Origin: a bacterium
Lineage (GTDB): Bacteria; Myxococcota_A; Bradymonadia; UBA7976; UBA1532
Assembly: GCA_030426085.1 (NCBI GenBank)
Contig: JAUHYW010000015.1
Coordinates: 1 to 64,000 of the forward strand
Length of the DNA stretch: 64,000 bases
Reading direction: 5' to 3'
Shown here: positions 41,749-50,552 of the stretch, in pieces
How positions within the stretch are numbered: the first letter of the stretch is position 1
Layout: every line of letters starts with the position of its first letter
The notes under the pieces: generated by a model
What the model saw: only the letters and a program-made list of their open reading frames with translations
The model's database searches: none
Told to the model about the DNA's origin: nothing
Program-made: the position numbers and the translations under genes

Positions 41749-42942
41749 TCAGGTGTGTGTCGGCAGCGTCGCCGGAAACAGCCCCAGCGGCGCGTCGGGC
41801 CACGCCTCGGCTTCGAGGGGCCACGAGATGCCCGTGCTCTCGCGGAGCATGTTCTTCGGCGCGTCGCCCCGCCCGCGCATCGCTTTGATGAAGTAGCGCC
41901 AGCCCGGCCGGCGGGCGGGGCGGCAGGTGTGGAAGTCGCCGAAGCCGAAGGCCACCCGCTCGCCCACCGGCGCCTGGACCGCCTTCATCGAGCCATCGGC
42001 CATGGCATCCCGCAGGATGCGTTGCCAGACCCCGCGGCCGTCGGCGCCCTCCGGTGTGATGGGCAGCGCCACCGGGCCGAGCAGGAAGCCGGTCTGCCCC
42101 GCGGGGCCCACGTTGCATGCGATCTGCTCGATGCCTTTGCCCGGGTTCAGCAGGTCGGGGGTGCCATCGCTGCGTTTGTTGATCCGGCTGGTGCCGTCGA
42201 TGTGATACCCGACGAGGCACGACGACCAGCCGGGTTCGAACTCGTTGATCTTGGCGTTGACGATGACATCGGCGTCGGGGGTGCGCCAGTCATCGGGCAA
42301 CGCAGCGACGAAGGCCCGGGCGATGGGGCCCCCGTGCTCGGCGATCCAGGTGGGGTGGGACGCGGCGAAGATCGGCTCCTCGGCGATCACCGCGAAGGGC
42401 GCGTCGACGAAGCCTTCGAGCGGGCCGAGCGGTTGATACTTCGAGTCGAAGCGCAGCGGGCGGTCGGCGGCCCAGTCGGGCAGCGTGTCGACGCTCACCC
42501 CCGGCCGCGGGCGGAAGACCCGCCCCGAGCGGCGGCGGCGGTCGAGCACCTCGCCGGGCGCGGCCCGCCGGGCCATGACGAGGGTCGCCTCCCCCGCGTC
42601 GCCGGCGGGCCAGGGCAGCCCCCGGGCGAGGCTCGAAGCGGGCACCGCGCGAGGTACGCCGTCCGCGGGCAGCGCCCGGCCGTCGAGGCTCAGCAGCGGG
42701 TGATCGGCCCGCGTCGCCAGCACAACCGGGTCGTGGGGCCCGGTCGCCTGCCACCGGCCGTCGCAGAGCGCGCGCTCGCCGGGCGAGACGGCGAACCAGC
42801 CCGGCTCCAGGCGGGTCCGGATGACGTCGACGGCGACCGCGTCCCACGGCGCCGCGTCGAGCACCCGCCGGGCGAGCGGGCCGCCGTCGGCCTTCACCGT
42901 GGCGGGCGACGCGCCGTACCACATCGACTCTGCGTCCTGCAT
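41749..42942 (-). CDS. 2-oxoglutarate/Fe(II) dioxygenase-like protein
   Basis: A protein of 397 aa. The C-terminal half contains an H-x-D motif in VGYHIDGTSR, a distal His in GFGDFHTCRPARRPGWRYF and an Arg about ten residues later. This is the ligand order of the double-stranded beta-helix 2OG oxygenases. Residues 1-200 have no recognised motif, although EPGW occurs both there and just before the H-x-D site. An oxygenase or hydroxylase role is therefore tentative. The ATG at 42942 is used because upstream residues are Pro/Arg/Gly-rich non-coding-like sequence. A poly-C/G run precedes the start. Confidence 0.5.
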   Translation of the reverse strand: MQDAESMWYGASPATVKADGGPLARRVLDAAPWDAVAVDVIRTRLEPGWFAVSPGERALCDGRWQATGPHDPVVLATRADHPLLSLDGRALPADGVPRAVPASSLARGLPWPAGDAGEATLVMARRAAPGEVLDRRRRSGRVFRPRPGVSVDTLPDWAADRPLRFDSKYQPLGPLEGFVDAPFAVIAEEPIFAASHPTWIAEHGGPIARAFVAALPDDWRTPDADVIVNAKINEFEPGWSSCLVGYHIDGTSRINKRSDGTPDLLNPGKGIEQIACNVGPAGQTGFLLGPVALPITPEGADGRGVWQRILRDAMADGSMKAVQAPVGERVAFGFGDFHTCRPARRPGWRYFIKAMRGRGDAPKNMLRESTGISWPLEAEAWPDAPLGLFPATLPTHT

Positions 42943-43059: not shown

Positions 43060-43089
43060 TTGCGCCGCCGCCGGGCCCCGGCGCATGAT
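43060..43089 (+). promoter_or_regulatory. Putative promoter of the hflX leader
   Basis: TTGCGC (43060-43065) and CATGAT (43084-43089) are 18 bases apart. The ATG of the leader peptide follows the -10 box after eight bases, so the leader would be translated from a leaderless or almost leaderless transcript. Confidence 0.45.
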
Positions 43090-43097
43090 GGGGCGCG

Positions 43098-43124
43098 ATG
43101 ATCTTCTACACCCGCCTGCGCTGA
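43098..43124 (+). CDS. Leader peptide MIFYTRLR upstream of hflX (putative attenuator)
   Basis: An open frame of eight codons followed by TGA, located directly after a promoter-like sequence and 161 bases before the hflX ATG. It ends in Arg-Leu-Arg and then the stop. Arg/Lys-x-Arg/Lys is the known sequence context at which macrolide-bound ribosomes stall, for example in the ErmD leader (MRLR). HflX proteins split stalled ribosomes and some are induced by antibiotics through leader attenuation. The function here is inferred; translation is not shown by sequence alone. A small CGGATC-ACT-GATCCG hairpin follows at 43137-43151. Confidence 0.5.
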   Translation: MIFYTRLR

Positions 43125-43285
43125 ACCCACGCCGCTCGGATCACTGATCCGGTCGCCGTCGCCCACGCGCTCTCCACCCGGAGGGCCGCGCGCAGGGGTC
43201 GTCTTCAATCGCCACCGCCGGCCCCCTCGTGGCTCTCCTCCGCTCGTGTACACCCGCGCCCCGCGCGCATCGAAAGGAGGCCCTC

Positions 43286-44638
43286 ATGCCGGCTCCGCTG
43301 CCCCCCCGCCCCGAGACCACCGCCCGCCACGCCATCCTCGTGGCCGTCCAGACCCCCGGCGTGACCGACGCCGCGCTCGACCGCTCGCTCGACGAGCTGC
43401 GCCGCCTCGCCGAAGGGCTGGGGGTCGTCGCGCTCGACACCGTCGTCCAGAAGCGGGACACCGCCCGCGCGGCCCATCTGCTCGGTCAGGGCAAGCTCGA
43501 CGCCCTCGCCGCCCGCCTCGCGCCCCCCGATGATCCGCCCCCCGAGGGCGCCCCGCCGCGCCCCGACACCGTGGTCGTGAACAACGAGCTGGCCCCGGGG
43601 CAGCAGTTCGCGCTCGAGAAGGCGCTGGGCGTGGAGGTGCTCGATCGGACCGCGGTCATCCTCGAGGTCTTCGAGACCCGGGCCCGGACCCACATCGCCC
43701 GCCTCGAGCTGGAGATCGCCCGCCTCGAGTACGCCCTGCCCCGCATGCGCGACCTCGACGAGCCCGACCGGGAGGGCGGCGGCGGGCGCGGCGAGCGGGG
43801 CCACACCCAAGCCGAGCTGCGCCGTCAGCAGATCCGGCGGCGCATCCCGGTCCTGCGCGAGCAGATCGAGGGCGCCCGCGCGGCCGACGACATGGCCCGC
43901 GCTCGGCGGGCGGCCCTGCCGGTGGCGGCGATCGTGGGCTACACCAACGCCGGCAAGTCGTCGCTGATGCGGGCCCTGACCGGCGAGGCGATCTATGTCG
44001 CCGACAAGCTGTTCGCCACCCTCGGCTCGACGGTGCGGGCCATCGCCCCCGAGACCGACCCCAAGGCGCTCGTCGTCGATACGGTCGGCTTCATCGAGGA
44101 TCTGCCGCACGCCCTCGTCGCCTCGTTCCGCTCGACGCTCGAAGAGGTCCGCGAGGCCGATCTGCTCGTCTTCGTCGTCGACGCCGGCGACCCCCACCGG
44201 GCGGAGCAGCTCGCCGTCAGCCGGCGCACGGTCGCCGAGCTGGCCGCCGAGGGCCCCGCCCCGCGCCCCCTGCCCCCCGAGCTGCTGGTCTTCAACAAGG
44301 TCGACCTGCTCGACGCCGAGGCCCGCGAGGCGCTGCGGGCCGCGCACCCCGACGCGCTTCAGATCTCGGCGTTCGACCCGGCCGATGTCGCCCGCCTGCG
44401 CGGCGAGATCGAGCGCCACATGCGCCGGGATCATGTGCGGGTCCGGCTCCGGGTGCCGTTCAGCGCAGGGCACCTCATCGGCGAGGTGCACGGCGCGGCT
44501 CGGGTCGTCGACGAGCGCTACGACGCGAGCGGGACGGTGCTCGAGGTCGACATCGACCCGGCCGAGCTGACCCGGCTGGAGAGCCGGGGGGTGAAGCGGG
44601 CCGCAGCGCTGCGAGAGGCGCCGTCCGAGTCGACCTGA
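43286..44638 (+). CDS. hflX: Ribosome-splitting GTPase HflX
   Basis: A protein of 450 aa. The N-terminal HflX domain contains DTVVQKRDTARAAHLLGQGKLD and VVVNNELAPGQQFALEKAL, then a helical coiled coil with a Gly-rich GGGGRGERG-type insertion. The G domain shows G1 GYTNAGKSS, G3 DTVGFIEDLPHAL and G4 NKVD. HflX binds the 50S E-site region and dissociates stalled 70S ribosomes after heat or antibiotic stress. The ATG has AAAGGAGG upstream with good spacing. The 5' leader is about 160 bases long and preceded by the MIFYTRLR frame. Confidence 0.93.
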   Translation: MPAPLPPRPETTARHAILVAVQTPGVTDAALDRSLDELRRLAEGLGVVALDTVVQKRDTARAAHLLGQGKLDALAARLAPPDDPPPEGAPPRPDTVVVNNELAPGQQFALEKALGVEVLDRTAVILEVFETRARTHIARLELEIARLEYALPRMRDLDEPDREGGGGRGERGHTQAELRRQQIRRRIPVLREQIEGARAADDMARARRAALPVAAIVGYTNAGKSSLMRALTGEAIYVADKLFATLGSTVRAIAPETDPKALVVDTVGFIEDLPHALVASFRSTLEEVREADLLVFVVDAGDPHRAEQLAVSRRTVAELAAEGPAPRPLPPELLVFNKVDLLDAEAREALRAAHPDALQISAFDPADVARLRGEIERHMRRDHVRVRLRVPFSAGHLIGEVHGAARVVDERYDASGTVLEVDIDPAELTRLESRGVKRAAALREAPSEST

Positions 44639-44737: not shown

Positions 44738-45700
44738 TCAGAGGCGGATGTCGACGAACGCCTTCTTCTCCAGCTCGTCGATCCACTTGCTCAGCTCTTC
44801 TTCGAGGCGCTTGTTGTGCAGCTCGCGCTGCAGCTCGCCCTTGACCTCGTCGAACGGCTGGGGGGGCAGGGTCTTGCGGGCGATGGCCTTGACGACGTGG
44901 TAGCCGAAGTGGGTGCGCACCGGGCCGCCGACCTGCCCCGGGGGGGTGTCGAACAGCGCCTGCTCGAGCGCGCCGTCCAGGCTGCCCCGGCGGATGGTGC
45001 CCAGGTAGCCTCCGTTGTCGGCGCCGGGGCCCTGGCTGTACTGCTGCGCGAGCGCGGCGAAGTCCTCGCCGGCCCGGGCTCGCTGGAGCAGCTCGGTGGC
45101 CTTCTGGCGGGCGGCCGACTCCTCGGCCTGGCTGGCCTGGGGGGGCAGGGTCAGCACGATGTGGGCCGCCTCGACCTCGTACTCGGTGTTGGCCCGGGTC
45201 AGCTTCTCTTTGTAGTAGTCGCGCAGGTCGCTCTCGCCGATGCGCACCTTGGCCCCGAGCACCGCCCCGATGACCCGCTGGCGCAGCAGGTTCTCCCGCA
45301 CGTCGGCCCGGAAGTCGGCGACGGTCATGCCCTGGCTCGACAGGTAGAGCTTGAGCTGGTCTTCGGTCCAGCCCTGGCGGCCCATGACCCGCTCGATGTG
45401 GGCGTCGACGTCGTTCTTGTCGACCCCCAGGTTGCGCCGGGCGGCCTCCTGGGCGACGAGCTTCTTGCCCACCAGCGCGTCGAGCGCGGTGCGGAGCTGG
45501 CGCTCGCGGAGCTGGGCCCGGGTGACCGGATCGGCGACCTGCTCGACCTGGGCCAGCAGCGGGCGGGCGACCTCCTCCAGCTCGGAGAGGGTGATGATCT
45601 CGCTGTCGACGACCGCCACGATGCGGTCGATGATCTCGGCGGCGGCCGGCCCGGCCCACAGCAGGGCGAGGGCGGCGACGAGGGGGGCGAGGCGGGTCAT
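44738..45700 (-). CDS. SurA-like periplasmic peptidyl-prolyl isomerase
   Basis: A protein of 320 aa with a signal peptide ending AGPAAA. The SurA N-terminal helical chaperone part starts with DRIVAVVDSEIITLSELEE. It is followed by one PpiC/parvulin domain at about 175-275 (AAHIVLTLPP, FAALAQQYSQGPGADNGGYLG, VGGPVRTHFGYHVVKAI). E. coli SurA has two parvulin domains, so this is the one-domain form. It helps outer-membrane proteins fold. Its ATG overlaps the upstream isomerase by four bases, and it is the last gene of the mfd operon. Confidence 0.9.
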   Translation of the reverse strand: MTRLAPLVAALALLWAGPAAAEIIDRIVAVVDSEIITLSELEEVARPLLAQVEQVADPVTRAQLRERQLRTALDALVGKKLVAQEAARRNLGVDKNDVDAHIERVMGRQGWTEDQLKLYLSSQGMTVADFRADVRENLLRQRVIGAVLGAKVRIGESDLRDYYKEKLTRANTEYEVEAAHIVLTLPPQASQAEESAARQKATELLQRARAGEDFAALAQQYSQGPGADNGGYLGTIRRGSLDGALEQALFDTPPGQVGGPVRTHFGYHVVKAIARKTLPPQPFDEVKGELQRELHNKRLEEELSKWIDELEKKAFVDIRL

Positions 45701-46815
45701 GGGGAGCCTCCGGCGGGCTTCGGGTCGGGCGCGGGTCGCGGGGGCCGGGCGCCGGGGGGCGGCAGGCCGGGGATGCGGCGGCGGGCGGGGCGCTGCGCCG
45801 GGCCGTCGGCGGGGTCGACGCCCGGGGGCAGGAAGCCCCGCTTCGGGGGCGCAGGCGAGACCTTCACCGCCTCGAGGGCCGCGTCGTCGATGGTGATCGT
45901 GGCCTTGCCCCGCAGGTCCTGCACGAAGGCCTCCATGGCCTCGGCCTTGCGCTGGCGGAAGAGCGTATTGCGGATGCGGGTCGCCGCGTCGGACAGCTCA
46001 CGGCGGTAGGGCCGGCGGAAGCCGGTCTTCTGCACGAGGTGCCAGCCGGCGCTGCTCTTCACCGGCGCGGGGGCCAGATCGCCGACCGCCTTCAGGTCGA
46101 AGGCGGCCCTGGCGACCGCGGGCGGGGCCTTGGCCTGATTGTCGGTCTTGGAGACCCCCGGCTCACCGACGAAGCCGATGTCGCCGGCGTCGAGCCGGGC
46201 CTGCTCGTCGGTGGCCCGCAGCCGCACGAACTCGGCGAAGATCGCCCGCGCCTTGAGCGGGTCGGCGGCGATGAGCCCCCGCACTTCGGCCAGCAGCGCT
46301 TGCGCCTGGGCCTCGTCGGGCACGACCAGGTGCGCGATGCGGACCTGCGCCGGGCGCACGAACTCGCCCTCGTTGGCTGTGTAGTAGGCCTCGATGTCGG
46401 CGTCGGTGATGTCGGACAGGCTCACCAGATCGCGCAGCTCGCCGGTGGTGAACGCCCGGACCATGGCCTGCTTCTTCGCCAGCTTCACGTCGGGGTCGTC
46501 GCCGTAGCCCTGCCGCTCGGCCTCGGCGGCGATCAGCTCGAAGCGCACCAGCGAGTCGAGGAAGTCCTTCTTGCGCTGGGGGCTGTCGTAGCGCGAGCGC
46601 ACGAACGGGGACTGCTGGTTCAGCCGGGCTTCGAACTCTTCGACGGTGATGGCCTCGTCCCCGATGCGGGCGACCACCCGGCCCTTCTCGCCGTCCTTCA
46701 GGTCGCCGGCGGCCAGGGTCAGGTCGGCCCCCTTCTTCGCGTCGTCCCCGCAGCCGGCGAGCGCGGCGAGCGCGGTGAGCGCGGTGAGCGCGGCGACGGT
46801 CAGCGTCCGGCGCAT
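45697..46815 (-). CDS. PpiC-type isomerase lipoprotein with Pro-rich tail
   Basis: A protein of 372 aa with a lipoprotein signal ending LAGC (about residues 18-21). It has an N-terminal SurA-like helical part (GDEAITVEEFEARLNQQ), then a parvulin domain at about 145-250 (IAHLVVPDE, ARLDAGDIGFVGEPG, SSAGWHLVQKTGF), and a final Pro/Arg-rich tail of about 55 residues. The canonical GG of the parvulin loop is altered to DIGFVG. It is probably an envelope foldase or chaperone working with the SurA-like protein. It overlaps mfd by one base (TGATG) upstream and the SurA-like gene by four bases downstream. Confidence 0.88.
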   Translation of the reverse strand: MRRTLTVAALTALTALAALAGCGDDAKKGADLTLAAGDLKDGEKGRVVARIGDEAITVEEFEARLNQQSPFVRSRYDSPQRKKDFLDSLVRFELIAAEAERQGYGDDPDVKLAKKQAMVRAFTTGELRDLVSLSDITDADIEAYYTANEGEFVRPAQVRIAHLVVPDEAQAQALLAEVRGLIAADPLKARAIFAEFVRLRATDEQARLDAGDIGFVGEPGVSKTDNQAKAPPAVARAAFDLKAVGDLAPAPVKSSAGWHLVQKTGFRRPYRRELSDAATRIRNTLFRQRKAEAMEAFVQDLRGKATITIDDAALEAVKVSPAPPKRGFLPPGVDPADGPAQRPARRRIPGLPPPGARPPRPAPDPKPAGGSP

Positions 46816-49800
46816 CAGCCCTCCTCCGGGTCGTCTTCGGGCAGCAGCTCGGCCAGCCGCTGGAGCGTATTGCGCACCGCGGCGACGGTGTGCCGCTGCT
46901 CCCGGGCGTCGAACATATACACCAGCTTGAAGTCGGCCGGGGCGTAGAAACGGGTGTTCGGCGCGGTGACCAGCCCGATGATCGCGCTGACCGGCAGCGG
47001 GCTGTCGGGGTGGAAGACGAGCTGCACCCGGTCGGGCGCGTGGTCGACGCTGCGCAGGCCGAGGGCCCGGGCCAGGGTGCGGATGCGCATCACCTCGATG
47101 AGGTTCTCCACCGGGCCGGGCAGCTCGCCGAAGCGGTCGAGCATCTCGTCGGACGCGCCGAGCACCTGCTCCTCGTCGGTGGCGTTGGCCAGCCGCTTGT
47201 AGAGCACCAGCCGCAGGTGCTCGTCGGGCACGTAGTCCTCGGGGATGCGGGCGTTGACCTGGAGGTTGATGTCGGGGTCGAACTCGACCTTGGGCGGCTG
47301 GCCCCGCAGGGTGCGCACCGCCTCGTCGAGGAGCTGGGCGTAGAGGTCGATGCCCACCGCCTGCACGTGGCCCTTCTGCTGGGTGCCGAGCAGCTCGCCG
47401 GCCCCGCGCAGCTCCATGTCGTGGCTGGCGACGTGGAAGCCCGACCCCAGCTCGGTGAACTTCTGGATGACCGCCAGCCGGGTGCGGGCCTCGGGGCGCA
47501 GCGTCGCCTGGCTGTTGACGAGCAGGTAGCAGTAGCCCCGGTCCTTCGCCCGGCCGACCCGCCCCCGGAGCTGGTAGAGCTGGGCCAGCCCGTAGCGGTC
47601 GGCGTTGTCGACCAGCATCGTATTGGCGGTGGGGATGTCGATGCCCGACTCGATGATGGTCGTCGAGAGCAGCACGTTGTACCGCCCCTCGGTGAAGTCG
47701 ACCATGACCCGCTCGAGCTTCTTGGGGTCCATCTGCCCGTGGCCGACGACGATGCGCGCCTCGGGCACCAGCGAGGTCAGCCACGCCTTGCGGGCGTCGA
47801 TGCTCTGCACCCGGTTGTGCACGAAGAAGACCTGCCCCCCCCGGCCCAGCTCGCGGGTGATCGCCTCGCGCACCACCTCGTCGGTCGCCCGGCAGACGTA
47901 GGTCCGCACGCTGAGGCGGTCGTTGGGCGGGGTCGTGATCACGCTGAGGTCGCGGATGCCGCTGAGGCTGAGCTGGAGCGTGCGGGGGATGGGGGTCGCG
48001 GTCATCGCCAGCACGTCGACGTCGGTGCGCAGCTCCTTGAGGCGCTCCTTGTGGCGCACGCCGAAGCGGTGCTCTTCGTCGAGCACCATCAGGCCCAGGT
48101 CGGCGAACTTCACGTCCTTGCTGAGCAGCCGGTGGGTGCCGACGGCGATGTCGACCCGCCCGCTCTTGAGGTCGGCGAGCTGCTGCTTCGTATCGGCGGC
48201 GCTCGTCAGCCGGCTGAAGAGCGCGATCTTCACCGGGTAGTCGGCGAACCGGTCGCGGAAGGTCTTGAAGTGCTGGAGCGCCAGCACGGTGGTCGGCACC
48301 AGCACCGCGACCTGCTTGGCGTCGACGACCGCCTTCATCGCCGCCCGCAGCGCGACCTCGGTCTTGCCGAAGCCGACGTCGCCGCACAGCAGGCGGTCCA
48401 TCGGGCGGGTGCGGGCCATGTCGTCGATGACCTCGTCGATGGCCCGGGCCTGATCCGGGGTCTCTTCGTAGGGGAAGGTCGCCTCGAACGAGCGGAAGTA
48501 GTCGTCGGGCCCGGTGAACGCGTAGCCGCTCGCCATCTCGCGGCGGGCGTAGAGGTCGAGCAGCGCGAGGGCGTCCTCCTCGGCCTGCTTCTTCGCCTTG
48601 GAGCGCACCTTCTGCCACGCGGTGCCTCCCAGCTTGTCGATGCGGGGCGAGGCCTGGCTGGCCCCGGCGTACTTCTGCAGCCGGCCGAGCTTGTAGACCG
48701 GCAGGTACAGCTTGTCCTGGCCGGCGAACTCGACGACGAGGAAGTCGCTCTCCGAGCCGGCGACGGCCAGCTTCTTGAGCCCGACGTACTTGCCGACGCC
48801 GTGGTCGGCGTGCACCACGAAGTCGCCCGGCTCGAGCTCCTTGAAGCTCTGCACGAACGGGCTGCCGGCGTCCTCGAGCTTGCGCGCCCGCCGCTTGGGC
48901 GCCTTGCGGCCGAAGATCTCCTCTTCGGTGATCAGCGCGAAGCCGTGGGTCAGCAGCCGGAAGCCGCCGCCGACGTCGCCCTGCACCAGCACCGCCCCGG
49001 CCTCGTCGGCGGTCGGCGGGTGCAGGTAGGTCGCCGGGGCCTCGCCGCCCCGGGCCACGGCGACGCCGTAGTTGCGCAGCAGCCGCTCGATGCGGTCGAG
49101 CTGGGTCACCTGCCGGCTGGCGATCACCACCCGGGCCCCCTCGGCGACCTGGGCCCGGACCCACTCGGCGAGCGGGGCGAGCGGCTGGCGGGCGCCGCGG
49201 TGCTGCACGAGCTGGGTGCTGAGCAGGTGGTTGTCGGGCACCTGGAACCGGATGGCGGCCTCGGGGCCTTCGACCGCGCCGAGCTCGTCGACCATCTGGA
49301 GGACGTGGGCCCGCACCTGCGGCCGGCCGTCGAGCAGCCGCTGCACCGCGTGGGGGGTCAGCGCGTGGGCCTCGGGGGGCAGCGTGGGGCGCTTCTCGGC
49401 CTGCGCCTCTTCGTGGCCCCGGGCGAGGTGGTCGAAGTGGTCCCGCAGCCGCTCGCCGACGCCGAGGGGGTCGAGCAGCACGAAGAGGGCCTGCTCGGGC
49501 AGGTAGTCGAAGACCGGCGCCGGCTGGTCGTAGAAGGCCGGGCGGAAGCCCTCGATACCCATGAACGGGATGCCGTTGGCCAGATCGTCGAGCAGCGGCT
49601 GGAGCGCGCGGGTGGGCACCCCGACCTCGGCCGCGGCGTCGAGGATGCCGCCCCGGGCCCGCTGGGCGAACGGGTCGATGAGCAGCTCTTCGCGCACCGG
49701 CGGCACGAGCAGGCTGGCCCCGGCGTCGCCCTTGGTGCGCTGGGTGTCGGGGTCGAAGAAGCGGATGCTCTCGACGGTGTCGCCCCACAGTTCGACGCGC

Positions 49801-50405
49801 ACCGGCAGCGGCAGGTGGGGGGGGTAGACGTCGAGGATGGCCCCCCGGATGGCGAAGGTGCCCGGGTCCTCGACGGTGCTGACCGCGTGGTAGCCGCCGT
49901 CGGCCAGCGCCCGCAGGAAGGCCGGGCGGTCGAGGTCGGTCTCCCGGGCGACGAGCGCGCTGTGCTCGACGAGCACCGCCGGCGGCATCATGCGCCGGGC
50001 GAGGGTCGCCGCCGAGAGCACGACCACCGGGCCGGCGTCGTCCCACACGAGGCGGGCGAGCTGAGCGAGCAGCGCCATGACCGCGCCCCGGTCGGGGCTG
50101 AGGTGGCCGTAGGGGCTCTGGTCGATGTCGGGCAGCAGGCTCACCGCGGCGTCGCTGCCGGCGAAGAAGCGCAGATCGGCGGCGATCCGCCGGGCCTCGG
50201 AGGCGCCGGGCGCGACGACGACCACCGGGCGGTCGAGGCGCCCTTGCAGGCCGGCGGCGAGGTAGGCGAGCAGGTCGGCGTCGACCCCGCTGACGTCGAC
50301 CCGGGCGTCGGGGTGGGCGACGGCGGCGGCGACCTCGTCGATGGGGTACCGCTCGGCGGCGGCGGGGGCGAGGTCGGCCGCCGCGGGCGCGGGCGTCTGC
50401 TGCAC
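46815..50405 (-). CDS. mfd: Transcription-repair coupling factor
   Basis: A protein of 1196 aa, close to the usual Mfd length. It has an N-terminal UvrB-homology module, the RNA-polymerase interaction (CarD-like) domain starting near LEPGDFVVHADHGVGKYVGL, RecG-like translocase motifs including LLCGDVGFGKTEVALRAA (motif I), DEEHRFGVRHKE (II), MTATPIPRTL (III), QLRGRVGR (VI), and a C-terminal TRCF domain. Mfd removes stalled RNA polymerase and recruits UvrA. The start is a GTG with GAGGAG upstream; the longer frame (50441) has no site. It is the first gene of an operon with two envelope isomerases. Confidence 0.96.
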   Translation of the reverse strand: MQQTPAPAAADLAPAAAERYPIDEVAAAVAHPDARVDVSGVDADLLAYLAAGLQGRLDRPVVVVAPGASEARRIAADLRFFAGSDAAVSLLPDIDQSPYGHLSPDRGAVMALLAQLARLVWDDAGPVVVLSAATLARRMMPPAVLVEHSALVARETDLDRPAFLRALADGGYHAVSTVEDPGTFAIRGAILDVYPPHLPLPVRVELWGDTVESIRFFDPDTQRTKGDAGASLLVPPVREELLIDPFAQRARGGILDAAAEVGVPTRALQPLLDDLANGIPFMGIEGFRPAFYDQPAPVFDYLPEQALFVLLDPLGVGERLRDHFDHLARGHEEAQAEKRPTLPPEAHALTPHAVQRLLDGRPQVRAHVLQMVDELGAVEGPEAAIRFQVPDNHLLSTQLVQHRGARQPLAPLAEWVRAQVAEGARVVIASRQVTQLDRIERLLRNYGVAVARGGEAPATYLHPPTADEAGAVLVQGDVGGGFRLLTHGFALITEEEIFGRKAPKRRARKLEDAGSPFVQSFKELEPGDFVVHADHGVGKYVGLKKLAVAGSESDFLVVEFAGQDKLYLPVYKLGRLQKYAGASQASPRIDKLGGTAWQKVRSKAKKQAEEDALALLDLYARREMASGYAFTGPDDYFRSFEATFPYEETPDQARAIDEVIDDMARTRPMDRLLCGDVGFGKTEVALRAAMKAVVDAKQVAVLVPTTVLALQHFKTFRDRFADYPVKIALFSRLTSAADTKQQLADLKSGRVDIAVGTHRLLSKDVKFADLGLMVLDEEHRFGVRHKERLKELRTDVDVLAMTATPIPRTLQLSLSGIRDLSVITTPPNDRLSVRTYVCRATDEVVREAITRELGRGGQVFFVHNRVQSIDARKAWLTSLVPEARIVVGHGQMDPKKLERVMVDFTEGRYNVLLSTTIIESGIDIPTANTMLVDNADRYGLAQLYQLRGRVGRAKDRGYCYLLVNSQATLRPEARTRLAVIQKFTELGSGFHVASHDMELRGAGELLGTQQKGHVQAVGIDLYAQLLDEAVRTLRGQPPKVEFDPDINLQVNARIPEDYVPDEHLRLVLYKRLANATDEEQVLGASDEMLDRFGELPGPVENLIEVMRIRTLARALGLRSVDHAPDRVQLVFHPDSPLPVSAIIGLVTAPNTRFYAPADFKLVYMFDAREQRHTVAAVRNTLQRLAELLPEDDPEEG

Positions 50406-50552
50406 GAGCGCTCCTCGGTGAAAGGTCGGGCAATACACCACCTCGGGCGGTGCCAGATCAACCGCCCGGAGACCCCGGCGCGCGAGCCGGGCGACGCCCG
50501 CCCCCCGCGGCGCATCGTTGTGGCCCCGACCCGTTCAGGAGGAGAGACGCCC

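Follow-up and report, generated by a model that had tools for sequence, protein, structure and literature searches.

An 8-codon open reading frame, MIFYTRLR-stop, precedes a gene for an HflX paralogue in the window (the whole 64,000-nucleotide stretch of DNA analyzed here) and is very likely a translated regulatory leader peptide, on which ribosomes would arrest to control that paralogue. The Arg-Leu-Arg (RLR) leader holds its place in ten related bacteria in which nearly all of the surrounding sequence has diverged, and it therefore very probably serves as a switch that turns hflX on when macrolide-type antibiotics stall ribosomes. Read directly on the forward strand, the frame is ATG ATC TTC TAC ACC CGC CTG CGC TGA; its stop codon (43122-43124) is followed by a gap of 161 nt up to the hflX ATG at 43286. 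An earlier note on this DNA had described the frame, a promoter-like TTGCGC-N18-CATGAT with the leader ATG eight bases on, a leader of about 160 bases, a CGGATC-ACT-GATCCG hairpin and two GCGCGC segments. All of these were recovered: the frame was exact, letters and spacing of the promoter-like site agreed throughout 43060-43098, and the GCGCGC segments were located at 43188-43193 and 43263-43268.

Features of the hflX leader region (positions within the window)
Feature	Position	Strand	Basis or remark
Promoter-like TTGCGC-N18-CATGAT	43060..43089	+	Direct read; TTGCGC 43060-43065, CATGAT 43084-43089, 8 nt to leader ATG
Leader ORF MIFYTRLR-stop	43098..43124	+	RLR-stop frames at the orthologous place in nine other leaders
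Arg6-Leu7-Arg8 codons CGC CTG CGC	43113..43121	+	Predicted arrest site; synonymous changes only across ten leaders; ErmDL geometry (PMC8298421)
Hairpin CGGATC-ACT-GATCCG directly past leader stop	43137..43151	+	Direct read
GCGCGCAGGGG segment, possible switch strand	43188..43198	+	Kept in sister species; complementary to RLR codons 43115-43121
hflX Shine-Dalgarno AAAGGAGG, good, 5 nt ahead of ATG	43273..43280	+	Direct read
hflX paralogue, HflX-II clade, 450 aa	43286..44638	+	TIGR03156; Pfam GTP-bdg_N/GTP-bdg_M/MMR_HSR1; tree

The downstream gene was correctly named in the earlier note: its product matched the GTPase HflX family TIGR03156 with 305 bits (cutoff, 217), and by family this HflX-II paralogue would be a ribosome-splitting factor. 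A further HflX, of the housekeeping type, is encoded on a different contig of the window genome, and a second HflX was present in every genome carrying an RLR leader. In a tree of 80 HflX proteins, the window gene fell within a phylum-wide clade of second HflX proteins (SH-aLRT 99), separate from the housekeeping copies; a fuller tree, in which some rows were misplaced by very long branches, gave the same two-kind split. All ten genes with RLR leaders belonged to a single 14-row sub-clade (SH-aLRT 99), four members of which (L012, L013, L018, and L148) were without the RLR frame. The simplest reading of this distribution is one gain followed by a few losses, with separate gains as a possible alternative. 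The paralogues studied here form an HflX clade of their own in this phylum. Listeria HflXr, which we take to be chain 8a57_D, came out as its sister with weak support (SH-aLRT 75) and on a long branch; the two lineages may or may not share ancestry. One genome (G006) contained three HflX genes (C99, C56, and C11); of the second-type copies C99 and C56, only C99 had an RLR leader.

In ten hflX leaders of this one clade, a frame of 8-11 codons that starts with ATG and closes with RLR-stop lies 161-298 nt ahead of hflX. Conservation of RLR among related hflX leaders, on which the earlier note had staked its proposal, was thereby borne out, as ten relatives keep RLR-stop. The encoded peptides were MIFYTRLR, MHIYIRLR, MWTLLYARLR, MWISHYIRLR, MIDLFHIRLR (in two species), MIDCFHIRLR, MATASLRLR, MRKFCFYIRLR, and MFILCLVRLR, with Arg-Leu-Arg at residues 6-8 (window and sister species), 7-9, 8-10, or 9-11. 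In the sister species (G001, L004/L038; HflX 75% identical), the frame ATG CAC ATC TAC ATC CGC CTG CGC TGA occupies the same place. A short ATG frame with the C-terminal tripeptide RLR was found in 10/10 carriers, and any other tripeptide in at most one. Since the ten leaders were chosen for carrying the frame, 10/14 of the sub-clade and 10/20 of the HflX-II-like genes of the class are the fairer denominators. For comparison, the frame was absent from all 45 leaders taken from other HflX-II genes and from all 12 housekeeping hflX leaders. The motif CGNCTGCGCTGA occurred 12 times in the window genome, and only the occurrence before hflX closed a short ATG frame; among 57 genomes of the class, no short ATG frame ended in [HY]IRLR-stop other than before hflX. 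HflX loci of other phyla (L039-L083) yielded chance-like frames only. A CYIRFR-stop frame (L223/L227) was considered as a further leader and rejected, both adjoining genes being on the other strand.

That the short RLR frame arose by chance is extremely improbable. Shuffling of each 500-nt upstream region did produce an RLR-stop ATG frame of up to ~15 codons now and then (0-3 of 2,000 shuffles), but recurrence in ten leaders of one clade, with diverged N-termini and at least eight distinct peptide sequences, refutes this explanation. The conserved stretch might instead be a binding site in DNA or RNA, and the letters TTGCGC or CTGCGC do repeat in most leaders. However, the codons behind them differ: the arginines are written CGC, CGA, CGG, or CGT, the leucine CTG, TTG, or TTA, and all three stop codons (TGA, TAA, and TAG) are in use, with the frame and its ATG kept in every case. 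Among the 12 RLR-stop positions, all 6 readily silent-changing sites varied and all 6 others were fixed (Fisher p 0.001). Silent variation combined with fixed coding sites indicates that selection acts on the peptide and its end rather than on DNA letters, and we regard a binding site as very unlikely.

Promoter-like sites were found upstream of the RLR frame in 8 of the 10 leaders, and transcription should therefore include the frame. Five family-6 loci showed TTGACA-18-TATTTT, TACCTT (two), TACATT, and TATCGT, 77-115 nt upstream of the frame; G006 showed TTGCCA-17-CAGACT, 7 nt ahead of the frame, and the sister species TTGCGC-N17-CATCAT, 9 nt ahead of the leader ATG. The window hexamers match the consensus weakly (3/6 and 4/6, or 7/12) but have been retained in the sister species, and a promoter scan of the window returned no match at TTGCGC-N18-CATGAT. 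With these spacings, the window, the sister species, and G006 would have a leaderless or almost leaderless frame; the window leader ORF is without a Shine-Dalgarno sequence of note.

The arrangement has precedents in Firmicutes. In Listeria monocytogenes, hflXr (lmo0762) follows the rli80 leader, which contains an RLR short ORF for a 14-aa peptide and an intrinsic terminator/antiterminator; the gene is induced by lincomycin and erythromycin, as shown experimentally, and its product, a second HflX, recycles drug-stalled ribosomes (PMC6310831). As in Listeria, an HflX paralogue stands here behind an RLR short ORF while a housekeeping HflX is encoded elsewhere in the genome; in contrast to the 14-aa Listeria leader, the peptides here have 8-11 aa with RLR immediately before the stop, and an intrinsic terminator/antiterminator was not found (PMC6310831). 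The uORFC-6-1 family of Bacillales, predicted by comparative genomics, likewise has a conserved Arg-Leu-Arg in a leader ORF upstream of hflX, but its Firmicutes members share a strongly covarying RNA structure, whereas the leaders studied here have no supported structure (PMC8632094). RLR is an instance of the +X+ motif, a site of ribosome arrest by ketolides and, with less strictness, by macrolides; on ErmDL these drugs arrest the ribosome while its P site holds Leu7 and its A site Arg8 (PMC8298421). Arg6-Leu7-Arg8 occupy identical positions in the window and sister peptides, although ErmDL extends past the motif and controls an rRNA methylase, whereas here the stop follows RLR directly and the target is hflX (PMC8298421). 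Features of +X+ arrest leaders were found together, namely a short RLR ORF upstream of a rescue gene and a motif near the N-terminus. The leader also resembles MsrDL (MYLIFM) in being a very short peptide with a C-terminal arrest site beside the stop, but MsrDL arrests at termination with the stop codon in the A site, has an intrinsic terminator, and controls an ABC-F gene (PMC10314930). A Gram-negative precedent is Escherichia coli toiL-topAI, where a drug-sensing leader ORF is combined with ribosome-site occlusion and Rho, without an intrinsic terminator; its target gene and stall sites differ from those of the leader described here (PMC12121999).

By analogy to these families, a macrolide- or ketolide-bound ribosome would arrest on the leader, its P site occupied by Leu and its A site by Arg; this would allow expression of the distal leader and of hflX, and HflX would then split and recycle drug-stalled ribosomes like Listeria HflXr. 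Coupling could come about by refolding that exposes the hflX ribosome site, by a block to Rho termination, or by both. The earlier note had gone further, proposing that stalling at RLR flips the leader between two exclusive folds involving the GCGCGC segments. Its central claim, an RLR leader controlling hflX, stands on strong ground given the conservation in ten leaders and the Listeria and Bacillales precedents; the RNA switch between two folds found no statistical support. The overall fold of the window leader showed no excess stability over shuffles (z 0.05), the RLR codons paired with RNA further downstream no better than in shuffles (mean z -0.14 over 10 leaders), and hairpins past the stop, similar in most relatives, were not beyond chance (Fisher p 0.086). 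RNAalifold gave no clear or consistent covariation in three subgroups of few sequences each, and Rfam gave no match up to E 1, uORFC-6-1 itself being possibly absent from Rfam 15. Nothing terminator-like was found in the window leader, and there was one weak candidate intrinsic terminator among the ten leaders. The absence of an intrinsic terminator from 9/10 leaders, together with an excess of C over G, therefore favors refolding and/or a Rho block over a terminator of the Listeria type.

Two versions of the coupling fall within the arrest-leader explanation. In the first, ErmC/ErmD-like translation attenuation, the RLR strand would pair downstream with the hflX ribosome site closed, and arrest would free it; we give this version slightly less than even odds. 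It draws on GCGCGCAGGGG, complementary to the RLR codons in the window and the sister species, and on calculations of the energy needed to open the hflX ribosome site: with a ribosome held at RLR, this cost fell from 10.8 to 8.0 kcal/mol in the window and from 9.2 to 6.6 kcal/mol in the sister species (~2.7 kcal/mol each), and in L014 and L011 it fell by 4.5-7 kcal/mol. The computed cost was lower in five of the ten leaders (window, sister, L010, L011, and L014) but higher in the other five; this rise counts against the version, as do an RLR duplex strength that did not surpass that of shuffles and the lack of consistent covariation in small alignments. Rho attenuation, which we consider possible though somewhat doubtful, would have the ribosome leave at the stop and Rho load on the C-rich leader when no drug is present. 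A ribosome under arrest would either keep Rho from loading (as in tnaC) or act via hflX translation (as in toiL-topAI). The nine leaders without an intrinsic terminator agree with this version, as does the drug-sensing E. coli leader ORF whose action is linked to Rho termination (PMC12121999). C/(C+G) was 0.58 in leaders versus 0.52 in controls (p 0.0017, a generous value because the rows are related), a bias that fits Rho loading but is modest and present in some control leaders too. Whichever coupling applies, the cue itself might not be a macrolide, e.g., another tunnel-binding drug or a general slowing of elongation. Listeria hflXr responds to lincomycin (PMC6310831) and toiL senses several drug classes (PMC12121999), but RLR is the +X+ motif of ketolide and macrolide arrest (PMC8298421), and we judge a non-macrolide cue unlikely.

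An RLR sensor with hflX as its target is known from Firmicutes; the leaders described here come from a distant lineage, encode a shorter peptide, and have no intrinsic terminator that could be found. No earlier report outside Firmicutes was found in the open literature (titles and abstracts, HflX with Myxococc*). We propose tentatively, at slightly less than even confidence, that a Myxococcota-type lineage placed an RLR-stop macrolide/ketolide sensor on its own HflX paralogue independently of Firmicutes, with a near-leaderless start in the lineage of the window and a coupling that works without an intrinsic terminator, by Rho or by translation. Drug-sensing control of an HflX ribosome-splitting factor, known in Firmicutes, would also operate in a distant Gram-negative lineage, and the combination of HflX duplication with an RLR sensor may have had more than one origin. 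A short ATG frame ending in RLR-stop before hflX would provide a simple sequence mark for antibiotic-response HflX paralogues, and the lack of an intrinsic terminator makes these loci suited to testing how leaders of this kind function in GC-rich bacteria.

Several further observations concern individual loci. The leaders L005, L006, and L011 (family-6) share a GGTGYGGYGC element ~45-80 nt past the leader stop, which is possibly part of the switch. In L012/L124 (G026:C153, minus strand), a clade member without RLR, TTGACG-N17-TAATTC lies ~126 nt upstream of hflX and is followed after ~12 nt by a frame that starts MPFVLTMNRASR and extends into the hflX start; this frame may encode a different leader peptide. 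In L126 (G020:C1), also a clade member without RLR, the hflX leader contains a promoter-like site (TTGACA) and a hairpin of 13 perfectly paired bp, GCCCATTTCAACG-aagca-CGTTGAAATGGGC, which has no T run. In the window, the divergent neighbor of hflX (41749-42942, minus strand, ~397 aa) had no Pfam match, and the region downstream of hflX on the opposite strand (44738-50441, minus strand) encodes a SurA/PPIC-type chaperone and the transcription-repair coupling factor Mfd, as assigned by Pfam.
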